Assembly (NCBI RefSeq): GCF_004114535.1
Contig: NZ_LBJC01000005.1
Location: forward strand, 1 to 64,000
Reading direction: 5' to 3'
From: Bradyrhizobium nanningense
GTDB taxonomy: Bacteria; Pseudomonadota; Alphaproteobacteria; Rhizobiales; Xanthobacteraceae
Length of the DNA stretch: 64,000 nt
In this document: positions 38,731 through 41,603 of the stretch, in pieces
Layout: each line of letters opens with the position of its first letter
Numbering within the stretch: position 1 is the stretch's first letter
Made by a program: the position numbers and the translations under genes
The notes under the pieces: model-generated
What the model was told of the DNA's origin: nothing
Databases searched by the model: none
What the model saw: only the letters and a program-made list of their open reading frames with translations

Positions 38731-39473
38731 GCGAGGCATGCACCAGCCGTGAGTTGATGATCTACACGATCTCGCGGCTGCTGAAGGGCGTGCGGCATGT
38801 TGCGGTCGGCCAGTCGTCTCCGATGCCGGCCGCAGGCGCGATGCTGTTGCGTGCGCTCAACGAGCGCGATGGACGGGAGCGCGTGCAGGTTTCGATCCTC
38901 GGGTCGGTCAAGCACAATTCCTTCACCGGCGGCGCCGAGGAGCTGTTCGATTGCGCCGCGCAGGGACGCCTGGATGCCTTCTTTCTCGGCGGGGGCCAGA
39001 TCGACGGCCAGGGCAACGTCAATCTCGTCGGCACCGGCGACTACCCGAACAATCCAGTCAGATGGCCCGGCTCGTTCGGCTCCGCCTACCTTTATTTTCT
39101 CGTTCCGCGGGTCATTCTGTTCCGGGAAGAGCACAGCTTGCGATCCCTGGTCGAGCGCGTGGACTTCGTGTCTGCGCCTGGCGTTACCGACGAGACGGTC
39201 TATCGGCGCGGCGGCCCGCACGCGCTGCTGACCAACGCGGCGTTGTTTTCCTTCGAGCGCGAGGCGGGACGCTTTCGCCTCCAGAGCACGCATCGGGGAT
39301 ATGATTGGCGTGACATCCGAGCCACGACGGGCTTCGCGTACGACAATGAGCAATGCGAGGCCACGACACCGATGCCGGACGAGACGACGCTGGCCTTGAT
39401 CCGGGGCCGAATTCGCGAGGAGCTGCGCGAATGCTATCCGCAGTTCGCCGGCAATATGCCGGGGCCGGGGTAG
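38727..39473 (+). CDS. Family I CoA-transferase-like protein, subunit B
   Basis: Beta subunit, 248 residues. Visible are RELMIYTISRLLKGVRHVAV, AFFLGGGQIDGQGNVNLVGT and VDFVSAPGVTDETVYRRGGP. Where GctB-type transferases carry the catalytic Glu (VESG), this protein reads VSILGSVKHN, so the covalent-CoA Glu appears absent. GAGGAG lies about 8 nt before ATG 38727. A hydrolase or lyase activity like IpdAB is therefore more likely than CoA transfer; this is my reading of an eye alignment. Confidence 0.82.
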   Translation: MSEACTSRELMIYTISRLLKGVRHVAVGQSSPMPAAGAMLLRALNERDGRERVQVSILGSVKHNSFTGGAEELFDCAAQGRLDAFFLGGGQIDGQGNVNLVGTGDYPNNPVRWPGSFGSAYLYFLVPRVILFREEHSLRSLVERVDFVSAPGVTDETVYRRGGPHALLTNAALFSFEREAGRFRLQSTHRGYDWRDIRATTGFAYDNEQCEATTPMPDETTLALIRGRIREELRECYPQFAGNMPGPG

Positions 39474-39510
39474 GGATCGCGTATGGCATTTCGCGAGACC
39501 TGAGCGCACG

Positions 39511-39645
39511 CCTCGTCCTTCGAGACGGCGCTTACGCGCCTCCGCAGGATGAGGCTAAGGAGCATCGGTGTGCGTTGAAACGACAGCCGCGCGCTCAGTC
39601 CTCATCCTGAGGGCCCGCCAACGGCGGGCGTCTCGAAGGATGGCC
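39511..39645. repeat. Dispersed palindromic repeat, two halves (CGTCCTTCGAGACGGCG...GATGAGG and CCTCATCCTGAGGG...TCTCGAAGGATGG)
   Basis: Same family as at 21.8, 32.2 and 58.4 kb. The two half-elements face each other across about 30 bp, each with its internal palindrome (GGCGCTTACGCGCC; GCCCGCCAACGGCGGGC). Confidence 0.8.
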
Positions 39646-40220
39646 GCAGGGAAGCTTTCCTATGTGATGGCCCTGCGAGTGGCGCGTCCTCGTCAGAGCT
39701 AAGTCATTGATCGCTCGTGTCTCGGCTACTGTGCATGGGGTTGTTTTCTCGCTTTTGCTTGACCACTCGTACGCGCGCACCGTCTCCTGTGGTCGGTCCC
39801 GGTCCAAAATTCGCTTTACAAGAATTCGGATATACCGTATGTTTCGCGCATCCCGCCCGCCGCAAGGGGCGTTTCGCGATCGTCACGAGACGCGGGCCGG
39901 GAGGCGGTGGCTGCGACGGCGTCGGCGCGCCGGGCTGGCTGCAGGGCGGAATTCCCGTGAGCAGCAGCACGCGCGATACGACACGGCGCTGACAGCGTCC
40001 TCGTTCGGTCCCGATGGCGAGCGCACGCCAGCCATCGGAGACAAGCGCGGGGATGTGCGCGGCGGCAAAATCGTGTGGTCCTGACGCCCGGGGTCTGTGC
40101 GTCAAGTGTTGCGGTGATTGCGGCGGCCCGACCGGGTCCGCGCATCAGCCATCCGCAAGGCGACGGGGGCAATAGTGCATCGCTCCCCGGGGAGAGCGCG
40201 ACATAAGCCGTAAAACCATC

Positions 40221-40327
40221 CGCGCAGGGGAGGCCGGTCGTTCCGGCGTCACCTGTAGTCCACCCCGTGCGCGTCTTGTTCGCACACGGGACCGCGGGTG
40301 CCAGCCGGCGCCCGGCCTTCCCTGCGC
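40221..40327. repeat. Long imperfect hairpin element, candidate structured RNA or dispersed repeat
   Basis: GCGCAGGGGAGGCCGG (40222-40237) pairs with CCGGCCTTCCCTGCGC (40312-40327) with one mismatch. Inside, CCGGCG-TCACC pairs with GGGTG-CCA-GCCGG, and CCCGTGCGCG with CGCACACGGG around TCTTGTT. Nested stems of this quality with unpaired bulges suggest an RNA or a mobile repeat of the kind found many times in related genomes. Confidence 0.5.
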
Positions 40328-40586
40328 CCTTTCTCACCAAGGGAGCAACGAAGAGAGCAAAGCTCGGGCGAAATGAGCCGCGAGAACGCGAAGATGTGTC
40401 TTCTGAAAAGGATCAAGTGTTGTGGGTGCGCTCGCGCCCGGATGCCGGCGGCGACGAAGGTGGCGGCGCCATAGGGCGCTATCATCAAGCTGTAACACTG
40501 GCGTAATTGAGTACCCGCGTGGGTCCGGAAGAAGATGCCGTCAACCATCTTTCGGAACGGGTGGTCGGTGACGGTAGGGGGCGGCC

Positions 40587-41603
40587 ATGGCCGAGCCGGC
40601 TAAGCTTGTCAGCGCGCTAGTGAACGTCGAACCCGCCATTCCCGGGCTGGTCTGGGCGTTTCGCCTGCGCGGCGACGGCAGCGCCGAGGCCCTGCCGCTC
40701 GACCAGCCGATCGAGCTCGGCCATGACGGCCGACTATGGCTGCATTTCAACCTGACCGATGCGCGCGCGCGGCCGTGGATCTCGGCGTCACAGCTGCCGC
40801 CGCTCGCGCGCGAGCTGCTGCTGTCGAACGACACCTTCCAGCAGCTTCACGTGATCGACCACTGCGTCTACGGCGTGTTCTCCGATCTCGTGCGCGAGAT
40901 CGACGCCGCGACGGAGGAGACCGCGTTCCTGCGCTTCGCCATGACCGAGCGCCTTCTCGTCAGCGGCCGCCACCAGGCGCTGTGCTCGGCCGACGCGACG
41001 CGGCGCGTGCTCGAAGGCGGCTACCGCGTCGACAATGTCGCCCATCTCCTGGAGAAGATCGTCGACGAGGTCGCCGACACGCTGGATAGAATGACCGACA
41101 AGTTGGGCCAGGAGATCGACGAGATCGAGGAGCGCATCCTCGCCGACGATACGAAACCGGAGATGCGCCGCAAGCTCGGCCGCCTGCGCCGGACCTGTGT
41201 GAGATTGCACCGGCAGCTCACCGGCCTGCGCGTGCTGTTTCACCGGCTCGACCAGAAGGACACCGATCACCTCTCGCCCGCCTTGCGTATCCGGGCCGGC
41301 AAGCTTGCGCAGCGGCTCGACGGCCTCGATCACGACATCGTCGAGCTGAGGGAGCGTAGCCGCCTGCTCGAGGAGGAGCTACGCTTCAAGAACGAGGAGG
41401 AGAGCAATCGCCACCTGCACACGCTCTCGATCGTGACCTCACTCTTGCTGCCGCCGACGCTGATCACCGGCATTTTTGGTATGAACACCAAAGGCCTGCC
41501 GCTGACGGACGTCGAGAGCGGATTTCTCGTGGCGGCGGTGCTGATGGCGTCATCCGTCGGCGCGGCCTATCTATTCATGCGGCGCACAGGCATTTTCAAA
41601 TAG
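40587..41603 (+). CDS. zntB: CorA-family divalent cation transporter (ZntB-like)
   Basis: A 338-residue pentameric channel or exporter subunit. A large N-terminal cytosolic domain contains the long helix region NVAHLLEKIVDEVADTL. Two C-terminal membrane helices follow, the first ending in the signature GMN within GIFGMNTKGLP. The ZntB style (zinc) is suggested by length and by the segment VIDHCVYGVFSDLVREID. ATG 40587 follows GGGGGCGG. It is 12 nt before the porin gene, so they likely share a transcript. Confidence 0.88.
   Translation: MAEPAKLVSALVNVEPAIPGLVWAFRLRGDGSAEALPLDQPIELGHDGRLWLHFNLTDARARPWISASQLPPLARELLLSNDTFQQLHVIDHCVYGVFSDLVREIDAATEETAFLRFAMTERLLVSGRHQALCSADATRRVLEGGYRVDNVAHLLEKIVDEVADTLDRMTDKLGQEIDEIEERILADDTKPEMRRKLGRLRRTCVRLHRQLTGLRVLFHRLDQKDTDHLSPALRIRAGKLAQRLDGLDHDIVELRERSRLLEEELRFKNEEESNRHLHTLSIVTSLLLPPTLITGIFGMNTKGLPLTDVESGFLVAAVLMASSVGAAYLFMRRTGIFK

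Follow-up and report, generated by a model that had tools for sequence, protein, structure and literature searches.

The intergenic DNA that separates a CoA-transferase gene from a CorA gene in Bradyrhizobium nanningense probably harbors one member of a new family of large structured RNA genes, probably trans-acting and carried on a unit that is dispersed as DNA. In the window, which is the whole stretch of 64,000 nt that was analyzed, the CoA-transferase gene stops at 39473 and the CorA gene starts at 40587, and 39474-40586 between them is free of genes; the initial annotation of this DNA had called 39750-40450 gene-free. The RNA would be read from the + strand and would be about 550 nt long here and roughly 490-580 nt elsewhere (both ends predicted), with a promoter that each copy apparently carries just ahead of its first helix. 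The predicted fold begins with a 5' hairpin and continues through a large domain and a long hairpin rich in GC to two small 3' hairpins. The large domain is predicted to be closed by a GCGGUGG/CCAYYGC long-range helix and to contain, besides a variable arm, the central multi-branch core, which is strongly conserved.

Table 1. Features of the family copy in the window (window positions)
Feature	Position	Strand	Basis
Conserved unit, one family copy	39806-40401	+	nhmmer, near full length in relatives and in own genome; BLASTN boundaries
Leader	39779-39805	+	Diverged in the window copy; TTGYGTTGCCCGACGGGCAAAACAC at this place in many other copies, part of the dispersed DNA unit
Putative sigma-70-like promoter, TTTACA-17-TATGTT	39815-39843	+	9/12 matches; near-consensus at the equivalent place in other genera
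Predicted transcript	39850-40400	+	Start about 7 nt past the -10 box; 3' end placed at the end of conservation
5' hairpin	39852-39901	+	Helices 39852-39858/39894-39901 and 39869-39879/39883-39893
Large domain	39904-40223	+	Closed by long-range helix 39904-39910/40216-40223
5' arm of large domain	39911-40062	+	Helices with compensatory changes; fast-evolving part about 39976-40056
Central multi-branch domain, best conserved part	40057-40215	+	Covariance model R1
Long GC-rich hairpin of the initial annotation	40222-40327	+	Helices of 22 and 7 bp, with 11 compensatory double changes between them
Small 3' hairpin	40326-40345	+	2 compensatory double changes
3' terminal hairpin, CTCGGGCG...AGCCGCGAG	40363-40384	+	9 compensatory double changes

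The span first proposed for the element, 39750-40450, is a near match to the conserved unit delimited by nhmmer. A 16-bp outer stem with one mismatch had been described within it, and that stem is found with GCGCAGGGGAGGCCGG (40222-40237) opposite CCGGCCTTCCCTGCGC (40312-40327); the single mismatch is G-T, that is, a G.U wobble as RNA. The further stems that it was said to enclose are present by folding and in the coordinates of the conserved pairs. A second hairpin, CGCTCCCCGGGGAGAGCG (40181-40198), exists in the window copy but is not conserved as a local hairpin, as four of its five pairs hold in 59-101 of 120-121 copies. The conserved partner of its CCCCG is CGGGG at 40164-40168, a pairing kept by 120-121 of 120-121 copies, and two of the five pairs of that helix show changes on both sides. 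Inspection by eye also showed inverted stretches of REP-like sequence, CATCCTGAGG together with its complement, just upstream of the unit at 39500-39650.

The element proved to be multi-copy, as had been guessed. A BLASTN search with 39700-40500 returned 53 matching stretches in the organism's own 8.29-Mb genome, pieces included; the number takes in 10 rows of the first 65 bases, three opposite-strand re-hits of the palindromic hairpin and several split copies. The 10 rows that match query positions 1-65 alone fall on a second short dispersed repeat around GGCTACTGTGCATGGGGTTGTTTTC, at 39700-39764 of the window. A search of further genomes matched 34 of 36 from the genus (G007 and G033 had no match) and gave two marginal matches outside it, with E values of 9.6e-4 and 2.5e-4. 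When the fetched loci were searched with a profile, 247 rows were obtained, 129 of them near end-to-end and 94 covering the hairpin part only. Removal of duplicates left 121 distinct copies of 561-668 nt including the leader, a set from which copies with large inserts would have been split and lost; they form two length classes, 44 copies being under 610 nt.

Covariance model R1 finds 24 central domains in the organism's own draft genome, 19, 37, 44, 12, 18 and 54 in six single-contig Bradyrhizobium genomes, and 19, 7 and 35 in three further ones. In a sample of the family, with at most 15 candidates scored per genome, 44 of 198 genomes and 9 of 47 genera had a match. The other genera account for 33 of these 44 genomes and carry 1-10 copies each, or 11 in the case of G307 (second R1 count); in G315 one central-domain copy was detected. 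Homologues in other genera are near full length and include the promoter. Across 199 genomes of the order, R1 matched outside the family in G391 only (E 9.5e-5), probably by chance. The core pattern occurs, among the matches listed, in Bradyrhizobium, Rhodopseudomonas, Afipia, 'Bradyrhizobiaceae', Hyphomicrobiales and unclassified MAG records. The unit had no match in a plasmid collection. Two IMG/VR viral contigs (L360 and L361) carry the central-domain pattern and are possibly prophage contigs with host flanks.

The copies are non-coding. The overlapping minus-strand frames, taken for phantoms in the initial annotation, are indeed broken elsewhere: the longest has an in-frame stop in 114 of the 120 other copies and the second longest in 105, three shorter pieces have stops in 56-77 of 120, and shifted frame lengths occur in 76-89 of 120 copies. 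Conservation at the codon level was looked for and not found, the frames being interrupted and the variability by position modulo three (0.228, 0.235 and 0.223) having no three-base period. A protein-coding gene family on either strand would explain why the window copy has long open frames and why open stretches on the minus strand slightly exceed those of shuffles in length (median 146 codons, against 131 on the + strand and 127 in shuffles, whose 95th percentile is 202-206), but given the stops, the shifted lengths and the lack of period it is refuted in the main, and we assign it next to no probability. Open frames crossing family copies are spurious.

The proposal of a structured RNA is supported by compensatory changes, both within the genus and across genera. 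Folding of the single copy gave z scores of -2.56 (+) and -2.65 (-), and 0 of 100 shuffles folded as well; this is moderately above shuffles, so one copy alone is not decisive, and single-sequence folding was dropped as proof of an RNA. RNAalifold on the 121 copies, whose alignment was not fitted to a structure model, gave 168 pairs, and double changes were counted on a FastTree tree. In these pairs, 147 double changes keep pairing. When the partners were slid by 1-6 columns the number was 5-15, and in 200 sets of rate-matched random pairs it was 7.8 +/- 2.8 with a maximum of 17. Of the single changes on the tree, 835 preserve pairing and 555 disrupt it. By helix, the 5' hairpin has 16 (outer) and 3 (inner) compensatory double changes, and the long-range helix has no double change but 41 single changes that keep pairing against 3 that break it. 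Median identity to the window copy is 0.42 in the fast-evolving part of the 5' arm and 0.845 in the central domain.

Across genera, 95.2% of the cells of the central domain pair, and 29 of its 38 pairs are changed on both sides. Cells changed on both sides number 163, compared with 41.2 in shuffles, and none of 500 shuffles reached any of the five measures; of the 26 rows in the underlying alignment two, L200 and L206, are weak, and the alignment was fitted to the model, which favors the structure. A home-made test resembling R-scape, run on all column pairs, gave two pairs at E 0.05, both in the structure, and a second version gave none; these numbers are small because the null is heavy-tailed. 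In the second version, z exceeded 4 in 9 of 60 structure pairs with enough changes versus 1150 of 91167 other pairs. The tree counts with slid and rate-matched controls replaced these tests.

The RNA strand is the + strand. The structure predicted from it contains 2022 G.U and 377 A.C cells, a comparison biased by the choice of strand. In the 134 pairs predicted from both strands, however, G.U still outnumbers A.C by 1008 to 307 (about 3:1), and a fold that forbids G.U gives 1013 to 350; this excess in strand-neutral pairs identifies the + strand as the RNA. The Rfam 15 covariance models had no match in the window at gathering thresholds, the best match below threshold being MIR1437 (E 0.39, 21.5 bits vs 168), and ARAGORN found no tRNA or tmRNA gene in the window.

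The putative promoter is the only sigma-70-like site found in 39600-40600, where 0.1 is expected, and it stops a few bases 5' of the first helix. In other genera, 13 of 16 copies have at least 10 of 12 promoter matches at the equivalent place, a level found on the opposite strand in 2 of 16 and in 1.2% of shuffles; the 16 are the 18 loci L182-L199 minus two whose match lacks the 5' part. At least 8 matches are seen in 14 of these copies, 11 of which start at one profile position. Within the genus the candidate promoters are weaker: at least 8 matches occur in 67 of 121 copies (43 of them at one position), against 22 of 121 on the opposite strand and 21.8% of shuffles, and at least 9 of 12 in 29 of 121. 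Judged by sequence match, the family appears to have its own promoter on the covarying strand, weak in the genus, and the unit is presumably transcribed. A search of the window copy for intrinsic terminators gave none. Many promoter regions of L182-L199 have a palindrome like GGATTATATTCC or GGACTATAGTCC across the -10 box, and many copies in the genus have CCGAAATTCGG in the promoter spacer; these palindromes are possible operator sites. A recurrent motif like CTGTTTGAAATTTGAATC is found just 3' of five other-genus copies (L184, L194, L195, L197 and L198), and we take it to resemble the rRNA antitermination boxA.

Neighboring genes and their orientation vary among the copies, so that action of the RNA in trans is most likely, rather than a role as leader or terminator of a neighbor. 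For 25 copies in the organism's own genome, a crude GC3 gene caller showed upstream and downstream genes in all four combinations of orientation, in numbers of 6, 6, 6 and 4, with one side missing in 3. A shared neighbor gene as partner of the RNA was considered and rejected, as no gene family was present in more than 3 of 17 other-genus contexts according to a crude gene caller. Neighbors that these contexts do share come from syntenic pairs and distant relatives, and include groEL in three genera.

The unit disperses at the DNA level. Pairs of copies that are 91-95% alike lie at unrelated sites within one genome. Among 11 pairs inspected by eye, 8 have in common a block starting slightly ahead of TTGYGTTGCCCGACGGGCAAAACAC or a variant of it; the end lies at GTGTCTG(C) in 3 pairs and further on, in REP-like sequence, in others; the leader hairpin and REP-like sequences border many copies. 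At one syntenic site the unit is present in G002, G022 and G034 and absent in G008, the same two genes being 761 nt apart where the unit is present and 89 nt apart in G008. At that site G079 and G026 carry the unit beside the right-hand gene alone, and G005, G021 and G083 match just from the right-hand gene onward. No clear target duplication was seen there, and the junction could not be placed to the base because REP-like sequence surrounds the site. A search for empty sites at the first two loci found no relative with both flanking genes adjacent and no unit. The unit ends have no terminal inverted repeat, and the longest word shared between the 60-nt ends has a median of 6 in the 121 copies and 6 in shuffles. 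The promoter travels with the copies, which would argue for dispersal by DNA and not by copying of the transcript. A RAYT as current mover has little support: Y1_Tnp was over the cut-off in 4 of 16 genomes, in one of them with an internal stop, and not in G005, which has 44 copies.

Copies also recur at fixed loci. Next to CorA, the copy is 90.1-94.2% identical to that of the window in seven of eight species in which CorA itself is 87.2-89.9% identical, and in the eighth (G079) it is 85.0% vs 87.1% for CorA; these species were drawn from a strict high-similarity search, which favors alike copies. In two more species, compared through the CoA-transferase gene, the copies are 93.2 and 93.9% identical vs 89.0 and 89.9% for the genes. 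Of these 10 species, 4 have upstream intergenic DNA that can be aligned, over 17-33% of its length, and 6 have none that aligns; in 8, the intergenic DNA downstream shows 78-88% identity across 31-94% of its length. More than 2 kb separate the copy from CorA in six of the eight CorA species; within 1.5 kb of CorA, 26 CorA loci contained only the 2 known copies and no hidden divergent ones. Gene conversion between copies could be an alternative cause of their likeness. In the 11 copies of the CorA and CoA-transferase loci, 19% of paired and 36% of unpaired sites vary, and 36 changes preserve pairing and 22 disrupt it (11-22 and 9-18, respectively, in slid controls). A different copy is contiguous, at least in G070, G083 and G005, with one gene that these genomes share, and in three other genera groEL has a copy 1.9-3.3 kb downstream that keeps the same orientation. 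We infer that selection acts on single copies.

The orientation of copies on the chromosome is only suggestive. Of the 241 copies listed for nine single-contig genomes, 172 point along replication, with the origin set at dnaA and the terminus at the opposite point; the lists of three genomes miss one or two copies, and copies shared by descent are not independent. The aligned copies are 119 of 147 within 35% of genome length from dnaA and 53 of 94 beyond. With origin and terminus fitted, p 0.05 was reached by permutation in only 3 of 9 genomes. In G005, G271 and other single-contig genomes the orientation appears polarized on the chromosome arms and is lost near the terminus. The bias fits either a co-directionally transcribed gene or a strand-biased mover. 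A chromosome-organizing or replication-linked DNA element would also produce replication-aligned copies, but we consider it very improbable in view of the fitted test, the loss of bias near the terminus, the non-independence of copies related by descent, a bias measured on family copies alone, and covariation of the RNA type.

The number of copies, 7 to 54 per genome, is odd for an ordinary RNA gene and suits a mobile element. The question then is whether the unit is selfish, non-autonomous mobile DNA like a REP or MITE, the hairpins of which serve a transposition enzyme supplied in trans while the host gains nothing from the RNA. The highly alike copies at unrelated sites, the site that is filled in three genomes and unfilled in a fourth, and the leader hairpin and REP-like borders would all be expected of such DNA, as would the replication-following orientation, since single-strand transposition could give this orientation. 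We nevertheless regard it as unlikely, though deserving real weight. The unit has no terminal inverted repeat, no clear target duplication was seen, and the Y1 transposase domain is below the cut-off in most genomes searched, including one rich in copies. Moreover, strand-asymmetric G.U pairs and a conserved promoter are unexpected for a DNA hairpin, and alike copies persist at one fixed locus. A mobile unit might instead encode an RNA that serves the element, for instance by guiding or scaffolding a nuclease or transposase whose gene lies elsewhere, in the way that omega RNAs serve IscB and TnpB. This would agree with the presence of a folded RNA in a unit that disperses and has hairpins at its borders, and with a fold kept among divergent copies, but the 121 contiguous copies have no room for a gene such as an IscB or TnpB ORF (copies with large inserts would have dropped out of this set), neither HEARO nor another Rfam model matches, and the other-genus contexts share no candidate gene beyond the few noted above. 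We consider an element-serving RNA improbable.

The reading that we prefer is that of an RNA gene that spreads with its DNA. The folded RNA would assemble with protein or with itself and act in trans. Its amplification in Bradyrhizobium would have come about as a unit including the promoter dispersed at the DNA level, after which selection on the RNA would have retained some of the inserted copies at least. Such promoter-bearing, DNA-spreading RNA genes might even supply a structural or regulatory particle maintained by the host, with tens of paralogues per cell, a possibility that we put forward tentatively. In that case the RNA would be a large ornate one of an undescribed kind, whose gene number rose in Bradyrhizobium from that of a low-copy ancestor within the family. 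The family is present in a studied symbiont genus with up to 54 central-domain copies per genome, and genomes with one detected copy (e.g., G315) would offer a clean knockout target, so that function is directly testable.

Dispersed repeats of Bradyrhizobium have been described previously. Br-REP1 and Br-REP2 of Bradyrhizobium japonicum are likewise multi-copy intergenic palindromic repeats; in the available part of that report they have a short consensus, of which the window has no match at up to three mismatches, and Br-REP2 is stated, with data not shown, to be part of a larger element (PMC5082802). GTAG/CGTC-tagged REPs were reported in Bradyrhizobium in the accessible text of another study, and REP-like sequences border many copies of our unit (PMC3733652). 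The palindromic unit of REP/BIME elements is given there as 20-40 bp, whereas the conserved unit is about 600 bp and has an RNA-type fold and a candidate promoter. The BjsR sRNAs of B. japonicum are intergenic like our unit, and some have imperfect copies in Bradyrhizobium; as described in the portion of the report available, these copies number 2 to 4, which sets them apart (PMC5082802). In a partial search of open papers, no description of the element was recognized.

To our knowledge, large structured bacterial RNAs are few, and most are without a known function. Among them are the large ornate RNAs OLE, GOLLD and ROOL, the subject of PMC9723947 and PMC12286853. These RNAs, OLE being about 600 nt long, resemble the unit in size class, in a multi-domain conserved fold, in conserved loop residues, in having no ORF and in a biochemical role that is unclear. 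The unit differs from them in having no match to an Rfam covariance model and in its dozens of chromosomal copies, each with what appears to be its own promoter.
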